Shown: positions 7,700-32,084 of the stretch, piece after piece
How positions within the stretch are numbered: the stretch's first letter is position 1
How the letters are laid out: each line of letters begins with the position of its first letter
DNA from: a bacterium
Lineage (GTDB): Bacteria; Patescibacteriota; Andersenbacteria; UBA10190; CAIZMI01
Direction of reading: 5' to 3'
DNA length: 36,660 nucleotides
Assembly (NCBI GenBank): GCA_030647555.1
Contig: JAUSJG010000004.1
Span: 1-36,660 of the forward strand
Notes under the pieces: generated by a model
Database searches by the model: none
The model's input: the letters and a program-made list of their open reading frames with translations, nothing else
Told to the model about the DNA's origin: nothing
Position numbers and translations under genes: made by a program

Positions 7700-7884
7700 T
7701 TAGGACTTGGTAATTAATAAACGCTTCATCTTATGTTCAATCCATCTCCAAATACAACTGCTTCTCAATCAAAAATTTTTCAACGTACGTTAAGTACGTC
7801 TCAAAATTTTGTTCAATCAAAGACAGTCGTCTTTGAAGCGCATTGAACATAATATTAAAGCGTTTATTAATTACCAAGCCCTAA
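7700..7884. repeat. Giant-hairpin element, copy A
   Basis: This 185-bp imperfect palindrome has outer arms of 27 nt (7700-7726 with 7858-7884) with one mismatch, beginning TTAGGACTTGG and ending CCAAGCCCTAA. Inner arms of about 60 nt are partly complementary, and the tip is ACGTAC-GTTAA-GTACGT. The core blocks CATCTTATGTTCAAT, ACTGCTTCTCAATCA and AGCGCATTGAACATAAT recur in copies B and C. It fills the divergent intergenic region, and its last base is the A of the ATG of the DUF4012 gene. Confidence 0.9.
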
Positions 7885-9725
7885 TGAAATTAAATAAAAA
7901 AACTATCATATTAGTGTTGTTGGGATTCCTATTAATATTGATGGTTGGTTTTTTTGTACTAAAATTACGCGCCGTGTATGGAGATGTACAGGGAGCAGTT
8001 AGTGCAAAGAGTGAACTTCTGTCCGCTATTAATTCTAAAGATACAAAGCGTGTCAAAATAGCAATTATCACAACAAGGGAAGCCGTCACCAAGGTTGATG
8101 AGGATTTAAACATTTTTCGCTATTTTGCTTTTGTTCCAAGGGTAAAAAGGGAAATGAATACGGCAAAAGATGTAATCTTGCAAACAAACTATTTGCTGGA
8201 TTCAGCCAGTCTGGCAATCAAAATTATTAATGAATCGGGGGTGGATGTTATATCGCCAAATATGGATGTGACGAGCGCGGAAGCGTTGAAAAAAATTGAT
8301 ACCGCTCTTGTAAACAATAAATCGGATATGCAAAAATTGTTGGAGCGCGGGGATAAAATTATTGTTAATAAAGTCGCGAGTAGCAGTTTTCGGCAAATCA
8401 GATCCCTACACGAACAAATTACGGGTTATTCAAAAATAGCTCAACAGGTGGAAAGATTGATTATAACCACAGAAGATGGTACGGCTACTCTTTTGGGTTT
8501 ACGCGGTGAAAAAAAATACTTATTAATGTTTGAAAACAGTGATGAGCTTCGTCCTGGTGGTGGCTTGATTTCAACTTATGGTTTAATCACTCTAAAAGAC
8601 GGACAAACATCCAATCTTTTCATCGACCATGTTCAAAATTTGAAACTTTTTTATACTACGCCGATTGAACTTAATCCCGACCCAATTCAGCAAACAATGC
8701 GACACCAGAAGAATTTATATATTTACGATGCCAATTGGTTGGGAGATCCCAACGAATGGTTGGACAAAATTTTTCGTTCTTGGAATGCCCAAAAACCGCT
8801 TGTCGATGGGATAATAGTAATGAGTACGAAGATATTGGAAGATGTTGTACGGCGATACGAACCGCTTCGATTGCCTGGAACAAATGAAGAATTTCGCGCG
8901 GATGACATAGTCGCTTCCTTGGATTACAACCTTGATGTACAGCATGGTCTTTATGATGTTAGTAAATATAAGGTTTTGGGCCCCCTGGTCGACGAATTGC
9001 TGAAAAATATTAAGTCTTCAAAGCCTACGCAACTTAAAGAAATTTTAGTGAACGCGAAAAAACGTTTTCAATCACGCGATCTTTTATTTTATACAAAGGA
9101 TGAAATTGTAAATGATGCGTTAAAAAACAATGGCATTCAAAACGAAATCACTGTGCCGGCCGGTGACGAGTTTTACGCGCTGGGGGCTAACTTGGGAAGC
9201 GGTAAGGCCGATGGACGAATGAAACGCTCGCTTGCGATGCGCGTTTATGCTCAAGAAATTTATCCGGCAACTTCGGCTACAATTACGCAAGATTACACCG
9301 CGGGTGTTGATGATTTTCGTGCCAGTGGATATTATGGATATCTCCGTTTCTTTTTACCTCTTGGAAGCAAGCTTGGTGCTTTTGATAATTTTAACTTGGT
9401 CGAAGATGAAAATATAATAGAGGCAGGGCGACAGGTTTACGGTAACTATTTCAGTGTTGCCACGGGAACAAAAAAAGACGTCGCGATTACATACGCGTTG
9501 GCCGAGAGCGTTGCCAAGCAAATTAAAGCTGGAAATTATTCGTTAACTCTGCGCAAGCAAGGTGGCGTAGAAATGCCGTTTGAGGTGAAAATAAATATTC
9601 CCGATAGTTGGAAAAATCCGGTAATTACGACATCCGACGGAACAACCGAATTTACAAAAAACCAAAGCACGGTCACATGGAAGGGGATATTAACAAAGGA
9701 TATGCAAATCGAAATTAAAAAATAG
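7884..9725 (+). CDS. DUF4012 domain-containing membrane protein
   Basis: This 613-residue protein is anchored by one N-terminal membrane helix (about residues 5-25, IILVLLGFLLILMVGFFVL). A helical region follows and then the DUF4012 domain, whose hallmark YLLMFENSDELRPGGGLIS is visible at about residues 213-231. DUF4012 proteins are common in CPR and Chloroflexi-like bacteria; their function is not established, although a cell-surface role is usual. The start is ATG 7884, where the hydrophobic anchor begins; the longer frame from 7809 runs inside the giant hairpin. Promoter elements, if any, must lie in the hairpin's right arm. Confidence 0.88.
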   Translation: MKLNKKTIILVLLGFLLILMVGFFVLKLRAVYGDVQGAVSAKSELLSAINSKDTKRVKIAIITTREAVTKVDEDLNIFRYFAFVPRVKREMNTAKDVILQTNYLLDSASLAIKIINESGVDVISPNMDVTSAEALKKIDTALVNNKSDMQKLLERGDKIIVNKVASSSFRQIRSLHEQITGYSKIAQQVERLIITTEDGTATLLGLRGEKKYLLMFENSDELRPGGGLISTYGLITLKDGQTSNLFIDHVQNLKLFYTTPIELNPDPIQQTMRHQKNLYIYDANWLGDPNEWLDKIFRSWNAQKPLVDGIIVMSTKILEDVVRRYEPLRLPGTNEEFRADDIVASLDYNLDVQHGLYDVSKYKVLGPLVDELLKNIKSSKPTQLKEILVNAKKRFQSRDLLFYTKDEIVNDALKNNGIQNEITVPAGDEFYALGANLGSGKADGRMKRSLAMRVYAQEIYPATSATITQDYTAGVDDFRASGYYGYLRFFLPLGSKLGAFDNFNLVEDENIIEAGRQVYGNYFSVATGTKKDVAITYALAESVAKQIKAGNYSLTLRKQGGVEMPFEVKINIPDSWKNPVITTSDGTTEFTKNQSTVTWKGILTKDMQIEIKK

Positions 9726-9869
9726 GGCAGTAACGTTTCCCTCCCTTATTCAGGTTGCACACGCTTCGGCGGTGTTACTCTGATGAGCAAAGGGCGAGGG
9801 TGGGTTTTGTGAGAAAGTTTGCCATGTCTGGACGTAAAATCCAAAAAAGAGTAGTTTCAATAAACATTT

Positions 9870-9943
9870 TCCGGGATCGTCTAATGGCAGGACACGAGAC
9901 TCTGAATCTCGTAATCTTGGTTCGAGTCCAAGTCCCGGAGCCA
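9870..9943 (+). tRNA. tRNA-Gln(CUG)
   Basis: The cloverleaf has acceptor TCCGGGA/TCCCGGA, D stem GTCT/GGAC, anticodon stem CGAGA/TCTCG with loop CTCTGAA (anticodon CUG), T stem CTTGG/CCAAG, discriminator G and an encoded CCA. The CCA is shared with the stem of the cruciform-like sequence that follows. Upstream, 9726-9869 contains no convincing gene. Confidence 0.95.
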
Positions 9944-10064
9944 CGTAAAGAAAATTGCAAAGCAATTTTCCACGTGGCAGGCCGCCACGCAGACTGCTAC
10001 GTGGTTTACTTTACGTGAGCCGCGTAGGGACGTGAGCGCGATGCGCTTTTACGTCCTTTACGCG
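9942..10064. repeat. Cruciform-like structured sequence directly after tRNA-Gln
   Basis: An outer stem CACGTAAAG/CTTTACGTG (9942-9950 with 10009-10017) encloses two hairpins: GAAAATTGC/GCAATTTTC with loop AAA, and an imperfect CCACGTGGCAG/CTGCTACGTGG. A second long hairpin follows at 10021-10064 (CGCGTA/TACGCG, GGACGT/ACGTCC, inner GCGC/GCGC). The outer stem uses the last two bases of the tRNA's CCA. It resembles, without sequence identity, the hairpin-rich DNA after tRNA-Thr. Confidence 0.75.
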
Positions 10065-10128
10065 ATCAAATAGTTTGAAATATCGCTGATTTGTATAGTT
10101 TTTTGGAATCAGATAAAATATGATCACG

Positions 10129-10422
10129 ATGAAACCAAAAAGTAAAACAAAGCAAGATGCTGTAAAGGCAGATGATAATCAGAAATATTTTATTGCGATA
10201 AATCAGGAACTCAATTCTATTAGAAGCGAAATGGCAACGAAGGTTGAGTTAAGGGATATGGAAGAAAGAATTTTCCAGCACTTTGACGTTTCTGTGGAAA
10301 AAATTGAATCATCACTGCGCGGTGCAAATTCAGATCACATATCATTGCTTGATGAAAAGAAAAACGATCACGAGGTTCGAATTACAACACTAGAAGTCCG
10401 TGCGGGGCTACGCTCCATATAG
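10129..10422 (+). CDS. Small coiled-coil hypothetical protein
   Basis: This protein of about 97 residues (MKPKSKTKQDAV...) is lysine-rich at the N-terminus and then strongly helical and charged, with heptad-like spacing (INQELNSIRSEMATKVELRDMEERIFQ and later KKNDHEVRITTLEV). Such short coiled-coil proteins occur often near mobile DNA; no family can be named. ATG 10129 lies nine bases after TAAAAT, close to the local leaderless spacing; ATG 10120, three codons earlier, is the alternative. It has no membrane segment. Confidence 0.6.
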   Translation: MKPKSKTKQDAVKADDNQKYFIAINQELNSIRSEMATKVELRDMEERIFQHFDVSVEKIESSLRGANSDHISLLDEKKNDHEVRITTLEVRAGLRSI

Positions 10423-10591
10423 CATTTAGTTCGGAGCGAATACAAAACCGTTATCGTTCAACATTTCGGGGCAATCTAGTAAAAAGTAATCCTGTGTTTC
10501 ACTTGTTTATCAGGTGTTTTGTGTTGGATTTGGCCTAAAAACGTCACTTGAATTTTCTAAAAGAGTAGTAAATGGTAGACTAATGGTACCC

Positions 10592-10822
10592 ATGCAAGAC
10601 AAAACGGAGATAGAGAACCTGACACAGGAAATAAAAAAACTAAGTGCTAATTTTAACTGGCGTAGTTCATTTATCCACGGAATAGTGAGCGGTTTTGGTA
10701 CAGCCATTGGTGCCGGCTTGTTGGTGGCTTTAGTCATATTACTATTAGGACAGCTAACCAATATGCCAATACTGGGACAACTCTTTAAATTCTTGGTTGG
10801 AAACTTGTCGGGCATAAAGTGA
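10592..10822 (+). CDS. DUF5665-like small membrane protein
   Basis: This protein of about 76 residues (MQDKTEIENLTQEIKKLSANF...) has a short amphipathic coiled-coil start, the stretch GIVSGFGTAIGAGLLVALVI and a second hydrophobic turn LGQLTNMPILGQLF. The order (charged helix, Gly-rich membrane helix, LLGQL...P.LG) matches my memory of the DUF5665 family, whose function is unknown. ATG 10592 lies ten bases after TAGACT; ATG 10583 is possible. The extension to a GTG at 10514 is not family-like. Confidence 0.65.
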   Translation: MQDKTEIENLTQEIKKLSANFNWRSSFIHGIVSGFGTAIGAGLLVALVILLLGQLTNMPILGQLFKFLVGNLSGIK

Positions 10823-10885
10823 AAATCGTGTTACTGTTATGTAACAATTAAGATAAGATTTAGTTTAAAAAGGAGGTGAGAAAAT

Positions 10886-11080
10886 ATGGCGACTATCATA
10901 AATAATCCACCAGCTAATGATAATTCAGGTGGACCCATCGGTATAATTATCGGGATTATCGTCCTGATTGTTCTAGGATATCTCGGATACGTGTATGGGC
11001 TTCCTGCGGTAAGACAAAAGGGAACTCCGCAGATTAATGTACCAAGTAAAATTGATGTAAACGTTAATCAAACTAAATAA
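10886..11080 (+). CDS. Small single-pass membrane protein
   Basis: This 64-residue protein has an N-terminal segment rich in Asn and Pro, one membrane helix at about residues 17-37 (PIGIIIGIIVLIVLGYLGYV) and a polar tail (INVPSKIDVNVNQTK). A near-perfect Shine-Dalgarno sequence AGGAGGTGA precedes the ATG, as in the next gene. A possible -10 (AAGATAAGAT region) and a short TGTTAC/GTAACA hairpin lie upstream. The function is unknown. It probably forms an operon with 11118-11264. Confidence 0.75.
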   Translation: MATIINNPPANDNSGGPIGIIIGIIVLIVLGYLGYVYGLPAVRQKGTPQINVPSKIDVNVNQTK

Positions 11081-11117
11081 CATACGATGAACGTATGTGC
11101 TAAAGGAGGTGAAAAAT

Positions 11118-11264
11118 ATGGGAATTATTGAAATCATTGCAATTGTGTTAATAGTCATGTGGCTTGGTGGATTTGCGCTTCAGATAGGCGGAGGACTTAT
11201 TCATATCTTGCTCGTCATAGCGATAATTGTATTCTTATTGCGATTTATTAGAGGAAAATCTTGA
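11118..11264 (+). CDS. lmo0937-family small membrane protein
   Basis: This 48-residue protein begins MGIIEIIAIVLIVMWLGG and ends FLLRFIRGKS. Two short hydrophobic helices, with an internal GGGLIHILLVIAII and a C-terminal RxIRG motif, match the lmo0937/DUF5670-type family, whose role is unknown (stress-associated in some Firmicutes). A strong AAAGGAGGTGA site precedes the ATG. The TGA stop at 11262-11264 runs directly into the repeat at 11264-11290. The paired strong ribosome sites mark these two genes as different in style from their leaderless neighbours. Confidence 0.82.
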   Translation: MGIIEIIAIVLIVMWLGGFALQIGGGLIHILLVIAIIVFLLRFIRGKS

Positions 11265-11290
11265 AGCGTTTATTAATTACCAAGCCCTAA
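11264..11290. repeat. Solo copy of the outer arm of giant-hairpin element A
   Basis: These 27 bases are identical to the right outer arm of copy A (7858-7884), ending TTAATTACCAAGCCCTAA. Here they abut copy B, sharing its first TAA. No matching left arm is present nearby. Confidence 0.85.
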
Positions 11291-11471
11291 GGCGACTGAC
11301 GTAAATAACCTATCCATCTTATGTCCACTACATCTCTGACTACAAACACTACTCGGTCACGAAATCCCTCAACGTACTTACAGTACGCTTCAAGATTTCG
11401 TTCGGTCGCAGTATTCGTATTCAGAGCGTATTGAACAGAATATGGACAGGTTATTTACGTCAGTCGCCTAA
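11288..11471. repeat. Giant-hairpin element, copy B
   Basis: This 184-bp imperfect palindrome has outer arms TAAGGCGACTGACGTAAATA and its near-exact complement ending GTCGCCTAA. Its core matches copy A: CATCTTATGTCCACT, ACTACTCGGTCA, AGCGTATTGAACAGAAT. The tip is CGTACT-TAC-AGTACG. The outer arms differ in sequence from those of copies A and C but pair with each other. It ends two bases before the ATG of the oxidoreductase at 11474. Confidence 0.9.
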
Positions 11472-11473
11472 GG

Positions 11474-13159
11474 ATGAACGCTGATCAACACACGTCGCAT
11501 AGGACAGTCGCAGTCTTTGGGGCCGGTATTGCAGGTTTAAGTACAGCCCATGAGTTTGCTCGAAGGGGATATAAGGTATCTGTGTATGAAGTAAATCCAG
11601 ATGCAGGTGGATTTTTTCGCAGTGCTCGGATGCCCACAGATGATCATATGCCTTCCGAGTACTCATGGCATGGCATTGGGCCTTGGTATCACAATGTATT
11701 TGATCTCATGAAACAGATTCCGTTTGACGAGACGGGGAGCATGTATGACAAGGCATTATCTCGACCGATTGCTTTTGGATTAGTTTCAGATAAAGGAAAA
11801 GCGGCATTTGATGATACGCTTTTTTTGAATGTGAAGAATATGTTTCGTATGTCATGGCTAGATGTTGTTCTGGGAGGTTGGTTGATGATGAAAACTTGGA
11901 CAGCTAATCGTAGAACTGTTGAGCAGTACGCTACATGTAATGCGGCTCAAGCATGGAGACCTTTGTTACGTGATCGCGCTTGGAAGGCCTGGAGATCTTC
12001 TTTTGGTCCTTGGGTTGGTTCTGATTGGAAAAATGTATCTCTCCATACGGCTGGGCAATTTTTTCGTAAACAATTAATAATGAAACCATCCCATTTTCAT
12101 AAAGCTGATGAGCAAGGCCCGGCGTGGTGGCATGGATCACGGGATGGATGGCTTCTTCTGCGTGGACCAAGCAGTGAATATTGGTTTGATAGATGGGTTG
12201 CATATCTTAAAACAAATGGTGTTGAATTTTTTTGGGAAAAGGCGTTAGAAAAATTAGATTTTGATGGGGAAAAAATACTAGTTGCACATTTAGAATCCGG
12301 AGATGTTGTGCGATCCGATGTGTATGTTCTAGCAACAAATCCGTTCGCCGCTGCAGATATTTTGGAACGTACACCTGATCTTGAAAAGCAGGATCAGTTA
12401 CGTCTACTTCGTCCGCTTGTGCAAGATGGTCCACATATTCAAGTATCTTTGCGCATCGCCTTCTCGGAGAAAATAGCATGGCCCAAAGAGCGGATGGCAG
12501 TTATAGTCGCCGATTCTGAATTTAATTTGACGCTGTTCGCAGAGGAACAGGCTTGGGACTCCCAAGTGTCTTTGGGTAATAGTATTAAGTCTTTGTGGAC
12601 GGTTACGGCTTGTGTAAGCTCTGTTCCGGGTCCACTCTTTGGTCTGCCACTTTCTAAATGTACGAAGGAGCAATTTATTGAAGAAGTAAAAGAGCAATTA
12701 TTTCGTTGTGAAGGGATAAACACATTAATTCAAAAACATAATCGCGGTAGAGAGTTAAAGGATTTTCCCATTGTAAAAATAGAAGTTTGGCATGAATGGT
12801 TATTTTCTTCCCAGGGGATTACATCTCCTCAGCCGAAATGGGTAAATACAACAAATACACAACAATATTTACCTACCCAAGCAACGCCTGTTTTAAATCT
12901 TGTGTTAGCGGGCGCACACACTAAAACACAGGTTGATGTGTGGAGTATTGAAGCTGCCGTAGAAAGCGGTCGGCGTGCGGCTCAAGTAATTATTCCTGAT
13001 GTGAAAGTTGTACCTCAATATAAACCGATATGGTTGCGTATGATCAGTGCTCTTGACGATGTTTTATTTGCTGTTAAAGGACCTCATATACTGAATGTTC
13101 TTGGGTGTTTTTTGATTATTATCGTTGTTGCTTTGATTTTTGTGAATTTGAGAAGATAA
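11474..13159 (+). CDS. FAD-dependent oxidoreductase with C-terminal membrane anchor
   Basis: This 561-residue flavoprotein of the amine-oxidase / phytoene-desaturase fold has an N-terminal dinucleotide-binding motif VAVFGAGIAGLSTAHEFARR with the following acidic YEVNPDAGG. A long substrate domain follows, and a C-terminal FAD motif near VLAGAHTKTQVDVWSIEAAVESGRRAA. A hydrophobic C-terminus (LGCFLIIIVVALIFVNLRR) would tether it to the membrane. The closest groups I can name are hydroxysqualene or carotenoid desaturase-like oxidoreductases; the substrate is unknown. The ATG lies two bases after hairpin copy B, so its 5' leader is inside or absent from that element. Confidence 0.85.
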   Translation: MNADQHTSHRTVAVFGAGIAGLSTAHEFARRGYKVSVYEVNPDAGGFFRSARMPTDDHMPSEYSWHGIGPWYHNVFDLMKQIPFDETGSMYDKALSRPIAFGLVSDKGKAAFDDTLFLNVKNMFRMSWLDVVLGGWLMMKTWTANRRTVEQYATCNAAQAWRPLLRDRAWKAWRSSFGPWVGSDWKNVSLHTAGQFFRKQLIMKPSHFHKADEQGPAWWHGSRDGWLLLRGPSSEYWFDRWVAYLKTNGVEFFWEKALEKLDFDGEKILVAHLESGDVVRSDVYVLATNPFAAADILERTPDLEKQDQLRLLRPLVQDGPHIQVSLRIAFSEKIAWPKERMAVIVADSEFNLTLFAEEQAWDSQVSLGNSIKSLWTVTACVSSVPGPLFGLPLSKCTKEQFIEEVKEQLFRCEGINTLIQKHNRGRELKDFPIVKIEVWHEWLFSSQGITSPQPKWVNTTNTQQYLPTQATPVLNLVLAGAHTKTQVDVWSIEAAVESGRRAAQVIIPDVKVVPQYKPIWLRMISALDDVLFAVKGPHILNVLGCFLIIIVVALIFVNLRR

Positions 13160-13308
13160 CCAGGTTCTCACTTCCTCTTAACTCCTGCGGGTTAAAGTTT
13201 GGAATATAAATAAACTCGTTCTGTCTCTGAAAAACAGTTCTAACGTCGTTCACGATGTGGAGCACTTAAAACAGGTTCTAAACGCGACCATTACCTATCG
13301 CTAGAAAA

Positions 13309-13341
13309 ATTAAAATAAGAGCATTGCGCCCTTATTTTAAT
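13309..13341 (-). terminator. AT-rich hairpin terminator, possibly bidirectional
   Basis: ATTAAAATAAG and CTTATTTTAAT form a perfect 11-bp stem around an 11-base loop. On the minus strand it is followed by TTTTTC, so it should terminate the gene at 13364-13759. It could also serve the oxidoreductase from the other side. The rest of 13160-13308 shows no gene, only repeated ACAGGTTCT-type words. Confidence 0.65.
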
Positions 13342-13363
13342 CCATATTTGTATAAATTTTGCC

Positions 13364-13759
13364 TTACATTGTTACGTTTACGTCTGGTTGCTCCTTAGTC
13401 AGTCGTTTTATGTTCAATATCAAATAAAAATTAATACATAGATCAATTAATAAAATGACCAAAACAGAAAATTGAGCGCTAATAATAAATGTGAACAAAC
13501 TTTCTAAAACAAAAAATACCATTTGAGCGATAAGACACTTAACTATCAAGTTGGCAGATTTTAGCATAATTTCGTTTAGTTTAATACCAATATATATATA
13601 TAGAATTCCAAAAATTAGACCAATGATTCCAACTAATCCCAAAATTAAGTTACCTTGAAAAGTTTTAAATAAATTTATTATATTATAAACTTCATACATA
13701 CCAATAATCAAAAAGAACCCTTTTAATGATTTTGTTGTTTCTAGAGTAATTTTTAGCAT
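13364..13759 (-). CDS. Hypothetical polytopic membrane protein
   Basis: This 131-residue, AT-rich gene encodes three or four hydrophobic helices (FFLIIGMYEVYNIINL; LILGLVGIIGLIFGILYIYI; CLIAQMVFFVLESLFTFII; FSVLVILLIDLCINFYLIL) with short polar loops and a tail RLTKEQPDVNVTM. I recognise no family. Its AT content is higher than that of the surrounding core genes, as is that of the divergent neighbour at 13865, suggesting the two came in together. Confidence 0.6.
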   Translation of the reverse strand: MLKITLETTKSLKGFFLIIGMYEVYNIINLFKTFQGNLILGLVGIIGLIFGILYIYIGIKLNEIMLKSANLIVKCLIAQMVFFVLESLFTFIISAQFSVLVILLIDLCINFYLILNIKRLTKEQPDVNVTM

Positions 13760-13864
13760 TTAAGTTTAAATATAATTAATACTACTAGACTAGCATTAGT
13801 GTAAAAAAGTGTATAGCATTACGAAACAATTGAACCCGTAAATAAAAATGCTATAATTTGATAG

Positions 13865-14476
13865 ATGAAAAAAGCGATACCAATAATTATCATCGTTCTT
13901 ACAAGTTTCTACTTGATTTATGATATTTTGCTTCTTGGGCACAATCGTGATGATATTTTTGTAGTTTATTTTTTTGAGGCAATAATTTTTGGTGTATTCT
14001 GTGTTTTGAAAATGAGAAAGACGATAAAGTATGACTTAATCTCAAGTGAAAATAGATCTGACAGTATAAGCAAATCAAAAGAGTATCAAGCAAAACTAAG
14101 AACCTCTGATGGTGTTGTTGGACTACTTACGTCTATTTATTTCTGTGTTCTTGCCGCTTTTTTTGTGTTGACTTATGTTTTTGTAAGTGAAGGAATATTT
14201 GAAATACAAATTAATTTTACCAACATATTACAACTATTGGTTATTCTTTTACTGGGACAATCCGTAGTTTACGTATCTGATTATATTATAGGCAATGATT
14301 ACAAAAATGCAGATATAGAAAAATTATTTAGCCTTCCTTACTATAGGTTGATTATTTTGAGTCTTGTAATTATTTTAGGCTCTTTCTTTGGTTTTCCTGT
14401 AGTAGTTTTGATTATAATGAAATTGGCATTTGAAATTTGGTATAGCATCTTTGAAAAATCGAAAAATAAATTCTAG
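13865..14476 (+). CDS. Hypothetical polytopic membrane protein
   Basis: This 203-residue protein has about five hydrophobic segments: IPIIIIVLTSFYLIYDILLL, VVYFFEAIIFGVFCVL, SIYFCVLAAFFVLTYVFV, ILQLLVILLLGQSVVYV and LIILSLVIILGSFFGFP. A charged loop at about residues 55-80 separates the second and third. No family is recognised. TATAAT at 13852-13857 lies seven bases before the ATG, so the mRNA is probably leaderless. It is AT-rich like the divergent gene at 13364-13759. Confidence 0.65.
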   Translation: MKKAIPIIIIVLTSFYLIYDILLLGHNRDDIFVVYFFEAIIFGVFCVLKMRKTIKYDLISSENRSDSISKSKEYQAKLRTSDGVVGLLTSIYFCVLAAFFVLTYVFVSEGIFEIQINFTNILQLLVILLLGQSVVYVSDYIIGNDYKNADIEKLFSLPYYRLIILSLVIILGSFFGFPVVVLIIMKLAFEIWYSIFEKSKNKF

Positions 14477-14531
14477 AGCCCTTGCTCGTATTCAGTCCAT
14501 GAGAAGAAAAATGAGCAAAATAAATGTTTTG

Positions 14532-14723
14532 TTAAAACCAAGTCGTTTTTGATTTCTTTGTCCGAATCATCTTTGATTTCAAATACAGTGTCGTGGTAAC
14601 GCAGCCCATTATCGCTTGTTTATCTTCTCGCTTCCCAGTCATGAGTATATGTTTGGCGTAGTCGCAAATATCAACGTTCGTTGCTTCGAATGAACTGTCG
14701 CTTTGTTTTAGTACACTTTCCAT
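14532..14723 (-). pseudogene. Possible decayed C-terminus of a serine recombinase
   Basis: The 63-residue frame contains FEATNVDICDYAKHILMTGK and REDKQAIMGCVTTTLYLKSK. This resembles the usual recombinase C-terminus (a helix, then KR..I......L.LK.K). Upstream on the same strand (14798-15013) a second frame carries CPLCGQ...GCTKN, which could be a worn zinc ribbon. Stop codons separate the pieces and no resolvase domain is seen. The call rests on weak motif similarity; it may instead be a meaningless open frame. Confidence 0.35.
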
Positions 14724-14828
14724 GAATCCTCAGTAGCGAATCAGATCTTCTGTAAACCGATTTTCAACCACCAGTTTATCAATATTCACTTTGTCGATTA
14801 GGTGGCTGTATTTTTTGTGCATCCGGGA

Positions 14829-15180
14829 AGCAAGCCACCTTCGTGGCTTGTGACGACATTGTTTTGTCCGCAAAGCGGACACAAAATTATTGATGAGCTT
14901 GTGTCCCTAAATTGCCACAAGCAATTCATGAACACTTCGCTCGGATTTGATGGCCGGAGCGATGTTTTTGTTTGCCCAACAGGGCAAGGCAAAAACCCCG
15001 CCATGCCCATCATAGTTTTACCGCGTCACGCCGTAGCTTTATGCGGAGGGTGAGCGGAGTGGAGAGGCCGGGGTCGAGGAAATTTTCGTCCGTCCTCGTT
15101 TCTTGCCCCGTAGCATCCCGCAAAAGCGGGATTGCTTCTGGGGTTCCGCCACCGAATTTCGTGCCAACGAAGTCGGTGCG
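14829..15180. repeat. Hairpin-dense noncoding stretch
   Basis: Successive hairpins cover this interval: CAAGCCAC/GTGGCTTG (14831-14850), a TTTTGTCCGC stem (14862-14886), GCTTGTG/CACAAGC (14897-14922), TCGCTC/GAGCGA (around 14937-14962), a GTTTTTG...CAAAAAC stem (14964-14997), CGAGGA/TCCTCG flanked by GGGG/CCCC (15069-15110), a CCCGC-AAAA-GCGGG hairpin (15112-15135) and CACCGA/TCGGTG (15150-15178). CACAAGCAATTCATGAAC at 14916 closely resembles the conserved linker of the array after tRNA-Thr. It may be a structured RNA or a pile-up of hairpin elements. No convincing gene fits 14724-15304. Confidence 0.6.
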
Positions 15181-15304
15181 TTGCCTACGATTCCAAAATC
15201 CTCATCAAGCCTGATTCAAAATTCTTGTATCGATTTTCTTGTTCATCTTTCGAAATAGCCATTTTCTGGTTGCGTGCCGGATAAAGAGATGAGATAATAT
15301 TAAT

Positions 15305-15640
15305 ATGGATTTTCTAGATTTTTTGCGACAGTTTAGAATTGGGCCGTTTGCAATTTTTGATACCGCGCTTGCGTATGTGGGTATTTTTCTTGTGGCACCG
15401 CTTCTGACTAAATTATTTTCTCGACTTCATCTCAATATTTCCAGAACTGCGTGGCTTTGGCTAACTTTGCCCATTGCGGTGATATTCCATCTTGTGTTTC
15501 GCCAAAACACACCGTTCATGAAAATGTTTTTGGATCCCAATGGTTTTTACATGGTAAAAATTATACTTTTGTTTATGCTTTATATGGGCTTAAGAAATAT
15601 TAGAACCAAAAAGCAGGTTAACGATTATTCAAGAGCTTAG
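15305..15640 (+). CDS. Hypothetical membrane protein
   Basis: This 111-residue protein has three predicted membrane helices (FDTALAYVGIFLVAPLLTKL; TAWLWLTLPIAVIFHLVF; MVKIILLFMLYMGL) and the loop RQNTPFMKMFLDPNGFY. I recognise no family. A -10 box GATAAT at 15293-15298 lies six bases before the ATG, giving a leaderless transcript. The metalloprotease gene begins 40 bases downstream and may be cotranscribed. Confidence 0.7.
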   Translation: MDFLDFLRQFRIGPFAIFDTALAYVGIFLVAPLLTKLFSRLHLNISRTAWLWLTLPIAVIFHLVFRQNTPFMKMFLDPNGFYMVKIILLFMLYMGLRNIRTKKQVNDYSRA

Positions 15641-15680
15641 TCTAATTTTTCGGAAAAACGGGATGAATCCGACATAAGAC

Positions 15681-16631: not shown

Positions 16632-16800
16632 AAAAGGAAAAGGTTAGTGATACGGAAGTATTTGTGGAGTAGATAAATAAAAAAATATTAAGTCCGGCCG
16701 TTTAAGTAATCATTTGCATTATTTTATAGTTTTGTTATGGTGCGTCAGTAGCTAGCCATTGTGGCGAGCGTGTTCGTTTCAACTGAAAAGGAGAAGGGCG

Positions 16801-25337: not shown

Positions 25338-25399
25338 GTGGTAATGCGACCAATTTTGCAGTGTGAATATTGCGGATTGATATGTGATATATTTATCGT

Positions 25400-25888
25400 A
25401 TGATCAAATATCAATTTTGCCCAAAGTGTGGTGGGGGTCTTAAGCCCAAGAATACGTCTTTATTGGTGTGTGGGGTTTGTAGTTTTTATTTCTACCAAAA
25501 TCCAAAACCAACCGCGAGTGCGTTGATTGTCAAAGAAGGTAAAGTTTTATTGGGAAAACGTACGATTGAGCCGTCCAAGGGAAAATGGAACGTGCCGGGC
25601 GGTTTTCTTGATTTGGGGGAAGATCCAAAAGTCGGTGCCAAAAGGGAAGCGTTGGAAGAAACGGGGTTGGTTGTGGAAATCAGGGAATTTGTTGGGATTT
25701 ATATGGATGTGTATGGGCCAACAAAAGAATCAACGTTAAATATTGCGTATTTGGCAAAAGTGGTCGGCGGGGAAGAAAAAATGAATGATGATCTAACCGA
25801 ATTAAAATGGTTCGCACCCGAGGAGTTGCCAAAAGAAATGGCGTTTGAGAACAACGCCAAAATGTTGGAGGCGTGGTTAGAAAAATAA
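25400..25888 (+). CDS. Nudix hydrolase with N-terminal zinc ribbon
   Basis: This 162-residue protein has a zinc ribbon at residues 7-27 (CPKCGG...CGVC) followed by a Nudix domain. The Nudix box GFLDLGEDPKVGAKREALEE plus TGL fits GX5EX7REUXEEXGU. Such zinc-ribbon Nudix proteins resemble NADH pyrophosphatase-like or ADP-ribose-type hydrolases that clear nucleoside diphosphate derivatives; the substrate is not readable from sequence. TATATT at 25388-25393 sits six bases before the ATG (leaderless). It converges with the methyltransferase gene across a shared terminator. Confidence 0.92.
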   Translation: MIKYQFCPKCGGGLKPKNTSLLVCGVCSFYFYQNPKPTASALIVKEGKVLLGKRTIEPSKGKWNVPGGFLDLGEDPKVGAKREALEETGLVVEIREFVGIYMDVYGPTKESTLNIAYLAKVVGGEEKMNDDLTELKWFAPEELPKEMAFENNAKMLEAWLEK

Positions 25889-25915
25889 AAAAATCCCCGG
25901 CGGATTTCGTCGAGG
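25888..25915 (-). terminator. Terminator between convergent genes
   Basis: On the minus strand CCTCGACG, AAATC, CGCCGGGG and then ATTTTTTT give an 8-bp stem with one mismatch and a T-run, just after the methyltransferase stop. It may also act weakly for the plus-strand Nudix gene. Confidence 0.7.
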
Positions 25916-25923
25916 TTTGGTAA

Positions 25924-26535
25924 CTAATTGTAAATGGCAATAATTTTCTTGCGTTTTTCCGGAAGCGGTTTTTGCATAACGAGCTCAAAAATTTTGTGTT
26001 CGTGGGGGATTGGGGTGTTGTCGATACGTTGAACAATCTTAAAACGTACAGGTCTAAGATCCTTCAAATTGATGAGAATTTCCTGTGCGGATTGTTCGAA
26101 ATCCACTTTGCCGGTGTGGTCAATAATGGAGAGGTTGAAATGTACGAACAGATACCCGCAGGGTTTGAGTGCCCGCGATATTTCGGCAAGAATCTTAGTC
26201 TGATTGACGTAGTGCATCAAATTGATGCAAAAGAATGCGCCGACGGAGTTATCGTCAAACGAGAGCGCTTCGCCGTTTTGTTGGTCGAATTTTAGATTGG
26301 GATGGACTAATCTTGCGGCGATTGTTTCGTCCTGGGAACGGTCAATACCAATCGTCTTAAAGCCGTTTTCGGTAAACACGGCGACGTCGTGTCCTGCACC
26401 ACAGCCAAGATCAACAATTAGATCGTCAAACTCACGCAAGCGAAGAAAATTGGCAAAATCCTCGGCATAGGTGCGGGGGTGGTTGTCCCAATGACGGCCG
26501 TTGCCATATTTGATATGCAAGTGAACGTTTTTCAT
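25924..26535 (-). CDS. Class I SAM-dependent methyltransferase
   Basis: This 203-residue Rossmann methyltransferase has motif I VDLGCGAGHD, the acidic end of beta-2 (TIGIDRS), motif II-like EALSFDDNSVGAFFCINLMHY and the post-motif ISRALKPCGYLFVHFN. It fits small-molecule methyltransferases of the Methyltransf_11/25 type; the substrate is unknown. GGAG lies seven bases before the ATG on the minus strand. It ends against a terminator shared with the Nudix gene. Confidence 0.88.
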   Translation of the reverse strand: MKNVHLHIKYGNGRHWDNHPRTYAEDFANFLRLREFDDLIVDLGCGAGHDVAVFTENGFKTIGIDRSQDETIAARLVHPNLKFDQQNGEALSFDDNSVGAFFCINLMHYVNQTKILAEISRALKPCGYLFVHFNLSIIDHTGKVDFEQSAQEILINLKDLRPVRFKIVQRIDNTPIPHEHKIFELVMQKPLPEKRKKIIAIYN

Positions 26536-26664
26536 CTCATATTCTCCGTAACAAAGAACAAGAAGAAAGAACGAGGAAGCAGTGCCAATGTATATAATTA
26601 AGTAATAAATGTCAATAATGGATTACCGTGATGGCATTGACGGTACAAAGCATACGCAGGGTGA

Positions 26665-26670
26665 TATAAT
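26665..26670 (+). promoter_or_regulatory. -10 box of the tspO-mscL pair
   Basis: A perfect TATAAT ends six bases before the tspO ATG at 26677, so the mRNA is likely leaderless. Confidence 0.65.
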
Positions 26671-26676
26671 TCAATC

Positions 26677-27075
26677 ATGAACAACACATATAATTGGTAC
26701 GCACAGTTAATTAAACCAACATGGGCGCCACCGTCTTGGCTTTTTGGACCGGTTTGGTCGGTTTTATATGTTTTAATCGCGATTTCATACGGAGCGGTTG
26801 TTTGGCTGGCGCTACAGAAGAAAATCACTTGGTTGGTTGTTTTGCCGTTTGCGCTAAATTTGTTGTTTAATGTAATTTTTACGCCGATTCAGTTTGGTTT
26901 GCGGAGTAATGTTTTAGCCGCGGTTGATATTTTGCTTGTCCTGACAACGTTGGTTTGGGCAATGGTCGCCATTTATCCGCATTCGCGCTGGATTGCTTAC
27001 GCGCAAATTCCGTATTTGTTGTGGGTTTGTTTCGCGACGGTATTGCAGTTGACGGTTACTTATTTGAATAAATAA
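26677..27075 (+). CDS. tspO: TspO/MBR family membrane protein
   Basis: This 132-residue protein has five membrane helices and the family hallmark WYAQLIKPTWAPPSWLFGP followed by VWSVLYVLIA. The second conserved part is LNLLFNVIFTPIQFGLRS. TspO proteins bind tetrapyrroles and related ligands and act in stress signalling or porphyrin handling; CPR members are uncharacterised. The length is slightly short of the usual 150-160. mscL starts four bases after the stop, so the two share an mRNA. Confidence 0.92.
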   Translation: MNNTYNWYAQLIKPTWAPPSWLFGPVWSVLYVLIAISYGAVVWLALQKKITWLVVLPFALNLLFNVIFTPIQFGLRSNVLAAVDILLVLTTLVWAMVAIYPHSRWIAYAQIPYLLWVCFATVLQLTVTYLNK

Positions 27076-27079
27076 ATAT

Positions 27080-27487
27080 ATGACAATTTTTAAAGAATTT
27101 AAGTCGTTTTTGTTAAGAGGGAATGTCGTGGATCTGGCGGTTGGCGTCGTGATTGGCGCATCTTTTGGGTCTGTAGTTACCGCGCTTGTGGCGGATATCA
27201 TGACACCATTTATTGCCGCTGTAGCTAAAGTTCCGGATTTTGGCGGGCTTGTTTTTACGATAAATGGCAGTAAGTTTATGTACGGGCATTTTATTAATAC
27301 GGTAATTTCTTTTCTGTTGGTTGCTACGGCGATATTCTTCTTTGTGATTAAACCAATCAACCTTTTAGTTTCACGTGCGCGAAAAGAACCCCCGGCAGAC
27401 CCGACAACAAAGAAGTGTTCGGAGTGTTTGAGCGAGATGCCTGTGCATGCAAAACGTTGTTCACATTGCGCGCAGGTAGTGATTTAA
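27080..27487 (+). CDS. mscL: Large-conductance mechanosensitive channel MscL with zinc-ribbon tail
   Basis: MscL opens under membrane tension to release solutes during osmotic downshock. The 135-residue protein has the family N-terminus FKEFKSFLLRGNVVDLAVGV, first helix VVIGASFGSVVTALVADIMTP, a periplasmic loop and a second helix VISFLLVATAIFFFVIKP. The C-terminus, in place of the plain cytoplasmic helix, carries CSECLSEMPVHAKRCSHC, a four-cysteine zinc ribbon seen in a subset of MscL proteins. It is coupled to tspO upstream. A region of strong hairpins follows. Confidence 0.95.
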   Translation: MTIFKEFKSFLLRGNVVDLAVGVVIGASFGSVVTALVADIMTPFIAAVAKVPDFGGLVFTINGSKFMYGHFINTVISFLLVATAIFFFVIKPINLLVSRARKEPPADPTTKKCSECLSEMPVHAKRCSHCAQVVI

Positions 27488-27512
27488 AATGCTCTGTAAC
27501 CGCTTACAAGTT

Positions 27513-27660
27513 AAGGAAAAAATAAGAACATCGCGCCCACTTCCGATGTGGTGCTGAGGCACTTCATCGGAAGTGGTGTAGGTTAGTAGCGTCGTAACGA
27601 CGTTACGCGAACCCAAACCACATCGAAGGAGATGCTGAAGCACCACCTTCGATGTGGCCA
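27513..27660. repeat. Pair of long hairpins with matching apices
   Basis: Two perfect 12-bp stems, CCACTTCCGATG/CATCGGAAGTGG (27537-27576) and CCACATCGAAGG/CCTTCGATGTGG (27618-27657), both carry a TGCTGAGGCA or TGCTGAAGCA mini-hairpin in the loop. Overlapping palindromes (CGTCGTAACGACG, CGTAACGACGTTACG) lie between them. The preceding AATAAGAACATCGCGCCC resembles AATAAGAGCATTGCGCCC in the terminator at 13309-13341. No gene fits the 285 bases 27488-27772. Confidence 0.7.
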
Positions 27661-27772
27661 CTATGGCTATTTCCTCAACCAGTGAGCGATAGCAGGATAA
27701 GAATTAAACTAGACATTTTTATAAATTTGGTCTATATTCAGGTCTGATTTTATTGTGTAATCAATCAAGTAA

Positions 27773-29239
27773 ATGGCCAATGATAATGTGATAATTAGGT
27801 TTTCTGACGTGAGTTTCGGATATCAGGAACATCGCCCTCTTTTAGACGAGGTAAGCTTTTCCGTGCGCGAAGGAAACCGTATCGCTCTTATGGGGCAGAA
27901 TGGTGCCGGAAAGAGTACTATTTTTAAACTTATTACAGGAGAAATTCAGCCAACCGAAGGACGGGTGCTAATGACGGATAATGGCACGTCTGTTGCGTTA
28001 GGGCGTCAAGTTATGCCTGATGAAGCTAAGGAATTAACGGTTCGCGAATATTTTCAAACCGCTTTTAGAGAAGAAAAGTATGATTTGGATAAACACATTA
28101 AAGAAGTTTTTGAGGTGGTTAATCTCTCGCAACCGCTCGACAAGAAAGTCGGTAAATTTTCCGGCGGTCAGCAAGCACGTCTGCTTTTAGCCCATGCCTT
28201 AATTCAAAACCCCGATATTTTATTGCTTGATGAACCAACCAATAATTTGGACCAACATGGCATCGATCATTTGATGACATTTTTAATGCTGTACGAAAAA
28301 ACTTGTATTGTAATTTCTCACGATGCAGACTTTTTGAATGCATTTACCGACGGCGTGTTGTATCTCGACGCATTTACCAAAAAAATTGAACAATACACGG
28401 GAAACTATGGCGATGTGGTGGAACAAATTAAAGTACGTATTGAACGGGAAAACCAATTGAACGCGCGGATGCTGTTGCAAATCAAGGAAAAACGCGCGCA
28501 ATCGGAAGTGTTTGCTCATAAGGGTGGAAAGATGCGTGGCGTTGCCAAACGAATGCGGGAGGCGGCTTCCGAGGCGGAAGAAAATATTGTTGAAGTGCGA
28601 GAGGAAGATCGCGCAATTAGACCCTTTAAAATTCCGACGCAAGAGTTTGAAATAGCTTTTAAAGGATTAATTATCGATTTTAACTCCATCACGGTTGTAA
28701 AAAATCACGAAGCGGTGGAAAAGGATATAAATCTGATTGTTAATCGCAAGACACACGTTTTAGTAACCGGTCCAAATGGAATTGGTAAAAGCACCTTGTT
28801 GGAAAAATTAAGCAAAGGATCTTCGCCTGCGGCCGAAATTCATCCCGACGTGCGGGTGGGTTATTACAAACAGGATTTTGGAAATTTAAACTATAATCAA
28901 AAGGCCTACGACGCCCTGGAAGAAGTAATGGAAGACAAGGATGAACATATTCTTCGTTCCACGGCGGCGGGGTTTTTGTTAGACGGCAAAGTGTTGGCGA
29001 GTGAAATTAAGTCTCTTTCCGAGGGTCAGAAAGGGTTATTATCGTTTTGTCGCTTGGCGTTGATGCGACCGGGGCTTTTGATTTTGGACGAACCGACCAA
29101 TCATATCAATTTCCGTCATTTGCCGATAATTTCGCAGGCTCTGCACGAATACGAAGGGGCGATGGTTTTGGTGTCGCACATTCCGTCATTCGTCGAACAA
29201 ATTCGTATCGACGAAACAATCGATCTGGGTAAACTTTAA
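27773..29239 (+). CDS. ABC-F family ATPase
   Basis: This 488-residue soluble protein has two ABC domains and no membrane segment. Domain 1 has GQNGAGKST, the signature KFSGGQQAR and LLLDEPTNN; domain 2 has GPNGIGKST, SLSEGQKG and LILDEPTNH. The charged linker between them (about 215-290) is the part that enters the ribosomal E site in ABC-F proteins. These factors relieve stalled or drug-bound ribosomes or tune translation; the subtype (Uup, EttA or other) cannot be fixed. The signature of domain 2 is degenerate (SEGQ), which is common in the family. Confidence 0.92.
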   Translation: MANDNVIIRFSDVSFGYQEHRPLLDEVSFSVREGNRIALMGQNGAGKSTIFKLITGEIQPTEGRVLMTDNGTSVALGRQVMPDEAKELTVREYFQTAFREEKYDLDKHIKEVFEVVNLSQPLDKKVGKFSGGQQARLLLAHALIQNPDILLLDEPTNNLDQHGIDHLMTFLMLYEKTCIVISHDADFLNAFTDGVLYLDAFTKKIEQYTGNYGDVVEQIKVRIERENQLNARMLLQIKEKRAQSEVFAHKGGKMRGVAKRMREAASEAEENIVEVREEDRAIRPFKIPTQEFEIAFKGLIIDFNSITVVKNHEAVEKDINLIVNRKTHVLVTGPNGIGKSTLLEKLSKGSSPAAEIHPDVRVGYYKQDFGNLNYNQKAYDALEEVMEDKDEHILRSTAAGFLLDGKVLASEIKSLSEGQKGLLSFCRLALMRPGLLILDEPTNHINFRHLPIISQALHEYEGAMVLVSHIPSFVEQIRIDETIDLGKL

Positions 29240-29265
29240 AAAACCAGCTTGTCAATAGAAAATGT

Positions 29266-29294
29266 ACATGTCTTGGCATGTGTTGTGTTAGAAT
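29266..29294 (+). promoter_or_regulatory. Probable peroxiredoxin promoter with ACATG-N6-CATGT palindrome
   Basis: ACATGTCTTGGCATGT (29266-29281) is an inverted repeat with 5-bp arms. An extended -10 TGTTAGAAT (29286-29294) follows, with no good -35. Transcription would begin near 29301, leaving a leader of about 25 AT-rich bases before ATG 29326. The palindrome would overlap the region normally held by the -35 box, so a repressor or redox sensor could bind it; no regulator is identified. Confidence 0.4.
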
Positions 29295-29325
29295 GAATTA
29301 TCATTAATTATTAATAATTAATTAA

Positions 29326-29889
29326 ATGGTTACAATCGGAGAAAAAGTCGCTAATTTTACCGTTGATGCTTTTGTTGGCGGTAAGATTAAAAAGATATCG
29401 TTAAATGAATGTGAAGGAAGGTGGTTGGTACTTTTGTTTTATCCGGCGGATTTTACTTTTGTTTGTCCGACAGAACTGCAAGAGGCAGCGGAATTTTATG
29501 AAGAATTTAAGTCAAATAACGCAGAAGTAATGAGCGTCAGTACCGACACGGCCTACGCGCACAAGGCTTGGCACGACACATCGGAGGCGATCGGCAAAGT
29601 ACAATATCCGATGCTGGCTGATCCAACGGGGGATCTATGCAGGCAGTTTGGGACATATATTCCAAAAGAAGGACTTTCGCTACGGGCATCATTTATTATT
29701 GATCCAAAAGGTGTTTTGAAGGCGGCGGACATGCATGACAATAGTATTGGACGCAACACGGCCGAAATTTTACGCAAACTGCAGGCATCAATCTTTGTCG
29801 CAAAAAGACCGGGGCTTGTTTGTCCGGCGAGTTGGCATCCCGGGGATAAAACATTAAAGTCGTCGGTGGATTTAGTGGGTAAAATTTAG
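29326..29889 (+). CDS. Typical 2-Cys peroxiredoxin (AhpC/Prx1 type)
   Basis: This 187-residue thiol peroxidase reduces hydrogen peroxide and organic peroxides. The peroxidatic Cys is in YPADFTFVCPTE and the resolving Cys in GLVCPASWHPG, both intact. The tail after the second Cys is short (about 23 residues), so it is closer to the AhpC type than to the eukaryotic sensitive type. No AhpF or thioredoxin reductase partner is seen nearby. It belongs with WrbA and superoxide dismutase further on as oxidative-stress defence. Confidence 0.94.
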   Translation: MVTIGEKVANFTVDAFVGGKIKKISLNECEGRWLVLLFYPADFTFVCPTELQEAAEFYEEFKSNNAEVMSVSTDTAYAHKAWHDTSEAIGKVQYPMLADPTGDLCRQFGTYIPKEGLSLRASFIIDPKGVLKAADMHDNSIGRNTAEILRKLQASIFVAKRPGLVCPASWHPGDKTLKSSVDLVGKI

Positions 29890-29890
29890 T

Positions 29891-29896
29891 TATAAT
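29891..29896 (+). promoter_or_regulatory. -10 box of the cyclophilin gene
   Basis: TATAAT ends six bases before ATG 29903, the same leaderless spacing seen at ftsE and tspO. Confidence 0.65.
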
Positions 29897-29902
29897 ATTT
29901 TT

Positions 29903-30580
29903 ATGAAAAACACAATTATCGTCGTAGCAGTTTTAGTCGTCATTGTCGGGGCGCTGGTTTTTTGGAGTAAATCCGGTAAGGAAGTGGCGGTGCGGGTTCT
30001 GGAAACACCTCCTGCAAGCCCATTGAGTACTGAAACACCATCTGTTATAGTTTCCTCTATGCTTACAACACAACCAGAGATTAAAGAAATTAATCAAAAA
30101 GTTAATGTCACACTGGAAACAAGTATGGGAAACATTGGTTTAGAATTAGACGGTACGGTTGCTCCGTTGACGGTCGGAAATTTTGTTACACTGGCAAAAA
30201 GCGGTTTTTACGATGGAACAGCTTTCCACCGAATTATCTCCAATTTTATGATTCAAGGCGGTGATCCGTTGTCGAAAGATCCAGCTAATCGCGCGATGCA
30301 GGGCACGGGCGATCCCGGCTATAAGTTTAAGGATGAATTTAATACTCTGAAATTGGTGCGTGGTTCATTGGCAATGGCGAACTCTGGGCCAAATACCAAT
30401 GGCAGTCAGTTTTTCATTGTCACGGCCGTCAGTACGCCTTGGTTGGATGGAAAGCATACTAATTTTGGTAAAGTAACATCCGGAATGGACGTAATTGATA
30501 AAATTTCCGCGGTAGAACGCGACGGCAACGATAATCCGCTCGTGCCGGTGGTTGTAAAAAAAGTTTTAGTTACTGAATAA
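29903..30580 (+). CDS. Membrane-anchored cyclophilin-type peptidyl-prolyl cis-trans isomerase
   Basis: This 225-residue protein has an N-terminal membrane anchor (about residues 4-21, IIVVAVLVVIVGALVFW), a linker of about 45 residues, and a cyclophilin domain with APLTVGNFVTLAKSGFYDG, FHRIISNFMIQGGDP, GSLAMANSGPNTNGSQFF and WLDGKHTNFGKV. The catalytic Arg (FHRI) and binding residues QGGD and NTNGSQFF are present. It would assist folding of proteins on the outer face of the membrane. Confidence 0.94.
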   Translation: MKNTIIVVAVLVVIVGALVFWSKSGKEVAVRVLETPPASPLSTETPSVIVSSMLTTQPEIKEINQKVNVTLETSMGNIGLELDGTVAPLTVGNFVTLAKSGFYDGTAFHRIISNFMIQGGDPLSKDPANRAMQGTGDPGYKFKDEFNTLKLVRGSLAMANSGPNTNGSQFFIVTAVSTPWLDGKHTNFGKVTSGMDVIDKISAVERDGNDNPLVPVVVKKVLVTE

Positions 30581-30589
30581 AAAGGAAAT

Positions 30590-31492
30590 ATGCGTATTCT
30601 CGTAACGGGTGGTACCGGATTTGTGGGATCAAATATCGTTAAAGAATTAAGCGGTAAGGGGCACGAAATTATTATTACCGGTTCGGATGCCGAGCAGGAA
30701 GTAAATAAAGATGTAGCGAAATATTTACAACCAGGACTAACAGGAATCGATTGGGAGGCATTAGGGAAGCTGGATTTGGTTTTTCACGAAGCGGCGATTA
30801 ATAATACTTTACTGAATGATCGCACGGAAATGTTGCGTGGAAATTTGGAAGCATCGCGGGAGCTTTTTGAGCGCGTCGTTAATTCTGGTTGTAAAAGAAT
30901 TGTTTACGCCTCCTCAACGGCCGTTTATGGAAATGTACCGGCGCCATTTAGAGAAGATGGTCCAATTGTTCCTTTGAATGTTTATGGCGAATCCAAAAAA
31001 ATGCTGGATGAGTTTGCGATGGATTTTGCAGAAAAAAATCCGGATATTGTAGTTGTTGGTTTGCGTTATTGTAATGTTTACGGTCCGGGCGAGGGACACA
31101 AGGGCAAGAGGGCCAGTATGATTTATCAGTTGGCTCGACAGATGCAGAAGGGGCGACCGCGCCTATTTAAGGACGGAGAACAAAAACGTGATTGGATATA
31201 TGTTGAAGATGTTGTCACAGCAAATTTGTTAGCTGTCAAAGCTCCTAAGAGTTGCGTGGTAAATTGCGGTTCCGGGAAGGCCTCTTCGTTTAATACAATT
31301 GTCGGGATACTTAATACATTATTGGGGACGGATTGGCAACCGGAGTATATTGAAAACCCACACATCGCTACGTATCAAAACTATACATATTGTGATATGA
31401 CTTATGCCAAGAAGATGATTGGGTTTGTTCCGCAATTCGACATAGAAAGCGGATTGAAAAAATATTTCGCGGCGGGACTATTTAATTCTTAA
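30590..31492 (+). CDS. NAD-dependent epimerase/dehydratase (HldD-like extended SDR)
   Basis: This 300-residue extended short-chain dehydrogenase has the NAD-binding VTGGTGFVGSNIVKEL, FHEAAINNT, YASSTAVYG and the catalytic Tyr-Lys pair in YGESKKMLDE. The segment NVYGPGEGHKGKRASMIYQL plus LFKDGEQKRDWIYVEDV resembles ADP-glyceromanno-heptose 6-epimerase (HldD/RfaD) more than GalE. Sugar-nucleotide conversion for surface glycans is likely; the exact substrate is uncertain. AAAGGAA precedes the ATG nine bases after the cyclophilin stop, so the two are probably cotranscribed. Confidence 0.88.
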   Translation: MRILVTGGTGFVGSNIVKELSGKGHEIIITGSDAEQEVNKDVAKYLQPGLTGIDWEALGKLDLVFHEAAINNTLLNDRTEMLRGNLEASRELFERVVNSGCKRIVYASSTAVYGNVPAPFREDGPIVPLNVYGESKKMLDEFAMDFAEKNPDIVVVGLRYCNVYGPGEGHKGKRASMIYQLARQMQKGRPRLFKDGEQKRDWIYVEDVVTANLLAVKAPKSCVVNCGSGKASSFNTIVGILNTLLGTDWQPEYIENPHIATYQNYTYCDMTYAKKMIGFVPQFDIESGLKKYFAAGLFNS

Positions 31493-31503
31493 TCTATAAT
31501 CAA

Positions 31504-31902
31504 ATGAAAAAAGAAAAGAAAGAAATATTCGATAAAAATAAGCAGAGCGAGATTGAGTTTCCCATTATATTTCATCACGCGCCGGAAGGACCGACTCGCG
31601 AATATCGATTGGAACAACTCAATGAAATATTGCAAAAATATGCAAATAAAATAAACAAACGTGATCCGGTTGAACGGATTGAAGTAACAATTGAACAGCC
31701 AAAAAATCCGGTGGGAAAAATTACCGGTTATGGCGTTCGTTTGCACATCTTTTTGTTTTGTGGCGAATCGTATGTCGCCTCGGCCGGATCATTTGTCGCG
31801 CGCGCTCAACATTTGGGGCTGGAAAAAAATATCCGAGAAGCAGGTAAGGAAATTATTTTGCAAATAGAAAAACACCGCTCAAAACAGATAGGGCACAATT
31901 AG
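31504..31902 (+). CDS. Hypothetical protein, possibly HPF/RaiA-like
   Basis: This 132-residue protein has a helix (EYRLEQLNEILQKYANKI), strands with IERIEVTIEQ-like and YGVRLHIFLFCGESYVASA spacing, and a final helix (LEKNIREAGKEIILQIEKHR). The order of one beta, helix, three betas, helix and the closing basic helix recall ribosome-hibernation factors, but the conserved signature is not clear. Its TAG stop lies within the first four bases of hairpin copy C. A TATAAT three bases before the ATG is too close to serve a leaderless start. Confidence 0.6.
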   Translation: MKKEKKEIFDKNKQSEIEFPIIFHHAPEGPTREYRLEQLNEILQKYANKINKRDPVERIEVTIEQPKNPVGKITGYGVRLHIFLFCGESYVASAGSFVARAQHLGLEKNIREAGKEIILQIEKHRSKQIGHN

Positions 31903-32084
31903 GCCTCGTCCATAAATAAATTCCCCAAGATTATGTTCAATGCGCTTTGAATACGAGTGTTTTGATTGAGTAAAACCTCGAGGCGTACTAGCAGTACGGT
32001 GAGAGGGTTTTACGATTGAGAAATACTTGCAGTCAAAGATGCAGTGAGCATAAGATGGGGAATTTATTTATGGACGAGGCCTTA
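31899..32084. repeat. Giant-hairpin element, copy C
   Basis: This 186-bp imperfect palindrome has outer arms of 29 nt (31899-31927 with 32056-32084; TTAGGCCTCGTCCATAAATA...) with one mismatch. The core is inverted relative to A and B: its reverse complement contains CATCTTATGCTCACTGCATC, ATTTCTCAATCG and AGCGCATTGAACATAATC. The tip is CGTACT-AGC-AGTACG. It lies between convergent genes, so here it could double as a bidirectional terminator. Confidence 0.9.

Follow-up and report, generated by a model that had tools for sequence, protein, structure and literature searches.

Three palindromes with one core

The stretch of DNA analysed here (the window, 36,660 nt) carries three giant palindromes, and the question it raises is what kind of element shares a core and a hairpin tip between its copies, while its outer arms match only within each copy. 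A preliminary description had placed the palindromes at the positions listed below, and all three were confirmed there. They folded far better than their dinucleotide shuffles (z −12 to −16; 0/200 shuffles equally good), which rules out chance palindromes. A covariance model built from 33 copies, these three included, found exactly three matches in the window at 185–193 bits, with everything else at or below 17 bits. As had been described, the cores of copies A, B and C could be aligned end to end, the tip CGTAC...GTACG was common to all three, and the outer arms were unlike between copies but complementary inside each.

7700–7884, folding (wobble-rich) strand −: copy A, whole element with its target triplets
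7703–7728: left outer arm of copy A, GGACTTGGTAATTAATAAACGCTTCA, subfamily A; its mirror is 7856–7881
7785–7799 (limits approximate): hairpin tip of copy A, CGTAC...GTACG
11257–11290: solo right end of an A-type element, with copy B placed at its bounding TAA
11288–11471, folding strand −: copy B, whole element; TAA duplication at 11288–11290 and 11469–11471
31899–32084, folding strand +: copy C, whole element; TTA duplication at 31899–31901 and 32082–32084

The single arm mismatch reported near the T[TA]AGG end was of two sorts. For copies B and C it is the centre of a TAA...TAA direct repeat, that is, the target duplication, and for copy A it is GGAC against GGGC. The solo A-type end lies on one side of copy B, and 2 bp beyond the other side is the ATG (11474) that opens a gene for a 561-aa flavin amine oxidoreductase-like protein, the translation start of which may be influenced by the element. 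The site of copy C is empty in the sister genome (G001). A 132-aa open reading frame (31504–31902) has its stop codon, TAG at 31900–31902, made by the end of copy C, and the G001 site lacks the element.

A dispersed family in several genera

The three palindromes are members of a large mobile family in Parcubacteria-type genomes. DNA searches of the home genome (G000; 1.32 Mb, 31 contigs) found approximately 34 whole, interrupted or fragmentary copies, and approximately 17 were found in G001, a genome of the same genus. The home-genome copies fell into three arm subfamilies (A, B and C), within which whole copies were mostly 82–95% identical and the arms were conserved. Thus the earlier claim that the arms are copy-specific fails for the home genome, where each subfamily retains its own arm, and holds at the level of the family (G003, G011 and partly G012); arms conserved between copies had been named in the preliminary description itself as a finding that would count against its proposal. 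A single copy in SURF_41 (Candidatus Parcubacteria) had a fourth arm type. Searching with a covariance model, as the preliminary description had proposed, revealed further copies in three of the ten same-order genomes of another family (the other genera G003, G011 and G012), all retaining the ~183 length, the TTAGG ends and the AAATAA box with different arms; eight of the 13 genomes searched in this way had no copies. None of the 26 pattern matches in viral contigs was confirmed by the model, and most pattern matches in genome contigs were due to chance, one unconfirmed match (L060) scoring 35 bits.

In being short (~183–186 bp), without coding capacity and dispersed in many similar copies, the element has the general features of a MITE (miniature inverted-repeat element). 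Coding inside it was rejected as the AAATAA boxes give early stops on both strands, and an 'ORF' seen repeatedly near the copies of other genera proved to overlap the element. Contigs of the home genome end inside copies (C29:1, C30:55785 and C17:18), showing that the repeats break the assembly, and further copies are likely to be missing. Two copies were mosaics, one with C arms and an A/B-like core (C13:96624) and one with a left arm A and a right arm B (C7:32397), indicating that arms and cores are exchanged between copies. A solo A end at C5:22340 was considered as the terminus of a longer transposon and dismissed, the nearby open reading frames being ordinary-looking by eye.

Several home-genome copies are interrupted by other small repeats. 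A ~36-bp hairpin repeat, CCCTCCGCTCCGATGGAGCTACAGGGTGGCAGG, lies at the same GACTAC site within three of them (L028, C26:15.8 kb; L018, C7:32.5 kb; and L019, C5:7.9 kb). A B copy (L015, 1292–1621 of G000 C9) contains a ~130-bp repeat with ~20-bp terminal repeats, GTAACTGCTCACTGACTAT, flanked by two CATCTTATG words as an apparent 9-bp target duplication, and this insert is apparently a second MITE-like family. A palindromic insert, ACGTAAA...CCACGT, at the GATTGAACAA word breaks copies in both genomes (L026, 7867–8127 of G000 C17; and L153, G001 C42), and in G011 and G012 (L163–L176) small hairpin inserts, GCCTGCCGGCCGTAGCC...GGCTGG and TTTATCCTGAGCGAAGTCGAAGGG, recur, often at a shared position along the stem.

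Pairing is kept on one strand

A palindrome folds equally on both strands except at its G-T/A-C mismatches. We therefore made a strand-neutral count, in which each copy was paired with its own reverse complement. Over 58 copies there were 434 G-U versus 60 A-C cells (in related copies such counts are not independent events), and all copies leaned the same way. The mean RNA folding energy of the first 33 copies was −95.5 kcal/mol for the folding strand versus −72.5 kcal/mol for the other strand; the consensus fold gave −95.6 versus −59.1 kcal/mol, with 68 pairs, 38 of them showing two-sided changes, and the consensus fold over all 58 copies gave −79 versus −38. By parsimony, G-U pairs were gained 96 times on the tree, compared with 27 times for A-C. 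Strand-biased cytosine deamination as the source of G-U was rejected, since the folding strand had no excess of C>T (114, against 161 G>A). A control count at three ERIC loci lacked the asymmetry (8 G-U versus 6 A-C).

The compensatory change of a folded structure that had been proposed was supported by the 23 copies from the three other genera, whose folding strand was assigned by the model. Among their 70 pairs, 96% of cells were paired, and 162 cells were changed on both sides, compared with 48±6 in shuffles (0/500), a signal that vanished once the partners were slid. Judged from these patterns of change, pairing is preserved as a single-stranded nucleic acid, and on one strand only. The element matched no Rfam family above the gathering score.

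Outer arms vary but remain matched

The outer segment was more variable than the core, yet better paired: the mean pairwise difference was 0.47 in G003 (core, 0.23; AAATAA stem, 0.11), 0.40 in G011 (core, 0.16; AAATAA stem, 0.02) and 0.28 in G012 (core, 0.13). It was nonetheless Watson–Crick paired within the copy in 78–90% of cells in these three genomes and 93% in the home family. In the arms, two-sided transversions were frequent and unpaired intermediates rare (26/580 cells), whereas the core changed chiefly via transitions passing through G-U. This pattern fits either long-term selection for pairing, during which conversion has kept the cores uniform, or repair in which one arm serves as the template for its partner, a quasipalindrome process known in Escherichia coli (PMC7202029). 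The earlier suggestion that the arms are captured target sequence was rejected, because the variable segment is internal to the TTAGG end, which is constant, and comparison with empty sites reveals nothing beyond a 3-bp duplication.

Insertion duplicates 3 bp and is oriented

Occupied and empty sites were compared, as had also been proposed, by querying with joined flanks, and unoccupied sites were found for about a dozen copies. Clean empty sites had a single TAA at C26:15761, at C13:96624 (where it terminates a 616-codon frame) and at C30:55336 (unoccupied in two relatives), and a single TTA at C4:44626; at C13:42220, G001 retains an apparent short scar of the left end. Among 76 copies, the flanking triplets were TTA/TTA in 40, TAA/TAA in eight and mixed in five, the remainder being degraded, and the triplets at the two ends co-varied (Fisher test, 4.6e-6), as is expected of a genuine 3-bp duplication. 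Insertion thus creates a 3-bp TTA/TAA duplication, in a weakly YTWAR context, and the element has both the terminal inverted repeats and the fixed-length (3-bp TWA) target duplication of a MITE.

When read on the folding strand, the 40 TTA/TTA versus eight TAA/TAA copies represent an orientation bias (p 3e-6). It was also seen in copies without a frame of at least 70 codons ending at the element (13 versus 2) and in the other genera (24 versus 4, the folding strand there being assigned by the model). Many copies lie at gene ends, and several targeted a TAA stop codon. The bias reflects either an asymmetric integration complex or selective removal of opposite insertions; of the 23 copies with co-directional genes on either side, 18 had the folding strand in antisense, so post-insertion selection could in part account for it. 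The one-strand wobble, the target duplication and the orientation bias were all absent from the preliminary description.

Search for a mobilising enzyme

The reported absence of a transposase adjacent to the palindromes was upheld. The home genome has one PF01609 gene, near a B copy (C14), which from its length we take to be IS1634-like. It was rejected as the partner: being the only PF01609 gene of G000, with none in G001 or G003, it is best seen as a chance neighbour. The IS5 model NF033580 had no matches in G000 or G001, so that neither search yielded a matching IS5-type transposase. Y1 genes were present in carrier and non-carrier genomes alike, and no hairpin lay beside any Y1 gene at the loci examined. 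Across genera, we found no recurrent neighbour gene plausible as a partner, and the families searched in these fragmented metagenome-assembled genomes yielded no autonomous relative sharing the terminal repeats.

Explanations for the folded strand

The reading that we tentatively prefer, at a little under even confidence, is a non-autonomous MITE-like element of ~183–186 bp with target cutting like that of IS5/PIF-Harbinger, one strand of which must fold. The folding requirement probably serves mobilisation. A DDE transposase of the IS5/PIF-Harbinger type, of which a 3-bp duplication is expected, would act in trans and duplicate TTA or TAA in a weak YTWAR context. The comparison of copies shows that one strand has retained its capacity to form, alone, a ~70-bp hairpin that includes G-U (or G-T) wobble, and that the outer segment has remained paired as its sequence drifts. 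The machinery may recognise this folded strand rather than a linear terminal repeat alone, presumably through the structure together with the constant TTAGG end, the AAATAA box and the core; such recognition would account for both the freely varying but matching arms and the orientation rule. Templated (quasipalindrome) repair might help to keep the arms matched, and conversion between copies might help to keep the cores alike. A bolder version, a new kind of mobile DNA whose folded single strand is the substrate of 3-bp-duplicating integration and whose arms are re-copied from each other, we consider doubtful.

The same strand-specific fold could instead be selected in transcripts of an ordinary DDE-mobilised MITE, which might protect the 3′ ends of mRNAs, be cut by RNase III or act as antisense RNA, as has been suggested for hairpin repeats of other bacteria. 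Tolerance of G-U is a classic RNA trait, many copies are located at gene 3′ ends, and related repeats are active in mRNAs according to the portion of one report used here (PMC2229807). However, the antisense position of the folding strand between co-directional genes means that most read-through transcripts bear the weaker strand, and the element has neither a promoter of its own nor an Rfam match. We regard selection in RNA as rather unlikely. It is less probable still that this is a plain MITE family whose subfamilies have diverged, the arms being ordinary terminal repeats, and that the wobble bias is an accident in the history of one ancestral core. The three home-genome subfamilies with their conserved arms, and the A-left/B-right hybrid with its evidence of recombination mixing arms, agree with such a history; the excess of G-U gains across the tree, the recurrence of the wobble bias in other genera at varying positions, the arms of G011 and G003 that differ copy by copy and still pair, and the orientation bias all speak against it. 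A single-stranded intermediate, either ssDNA or RNA reverse-transcribed back, would impose a one-strand fold and an insertion orientation, and might also be read from the hypervariable matched arms and their few unpaired intermediates. We judge this very unlikely, as a 3-bp duplication that co-varies at both ends is the signature left by staggered cuts in a duplex target, Y1/HUH insertion makes no target duplication, and Y1 genes occur in element-free genomes too and never beside the hairpins.

Comparison with known systems

The element shares a one-strand fold, conservation of structure and an oriented target with integron attC sites, IS200/IS605 ends and REP/RAYT, in all of which one strand is favoured in folding, structure is conserved more than sequence and the target is orientation-specific. 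These systems have no co-varying target duplication, and their stems are much shorter. The duplication found here argues against membership in the single-strand hairpin systems, and with hairpins that have no linked Y1 gene the element resembles neither IS200/IS605 nor REP-RAYT in this respect. Should movement depend on the strand-specific fold, the element would unite structure-recognised single-strand transposition with staggered-cut, duplicating integration, so far thought to be separate.

Its 3-bp TWA/TNA duplication, terminal GG and weak Y-TWA-R context are those of the IS1031 group of the IS5 family, which has a TNA target (PMC12016507), and of PIF/Harbinger with the Tourist-type MITEs, which have a TWA target (PMC4482050). 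Unlike in these, the subterminal sequence is unconserved, insertion is orientation-biased and no such transposase was found in G000 or G001.

A search of one collection of papers found nothing combining 'miniature inverted-repeat' with Patescibacteria or the candidate phyla radiation, suggesting that the small mobile elements of these genomes are little studied. The earlier proposal of an undescribed hairpin element family is supported. Its nearest relatives in kind, going by the portions of two reports used here (PMC2229807 and PMC2267715), are the bacterial hairpin MITEs ERIC/IRU, Correia/NEMIS, RUP and YPAL/RU-2, which are likewise 100–200 bp, intergenic and non-coding, with a long stem-loop and a target duplication; YPAL too was recognised from filled and empty sites. 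The duplication is mostly TA in these and 3–26 bp in YPAL, compared with TTA/TAA here. The ERIC loci, unlike the present element, had no wobble bias, and counting G-U versus A-C in a palindromic element is a simple, generally applicable way to tell which of its strands is important, usable for every bacterial hairpin MITE. One-strand folding and oriented insertion go beyond an ordinary MITE and, together with the matched hypervariable arms, hint at an unusual mode of movement. In the same portions of the two reports, one-strand wobble, hypervariable matched arms and a target orientation rule are not among the properties described for the known hairpin MITEs.
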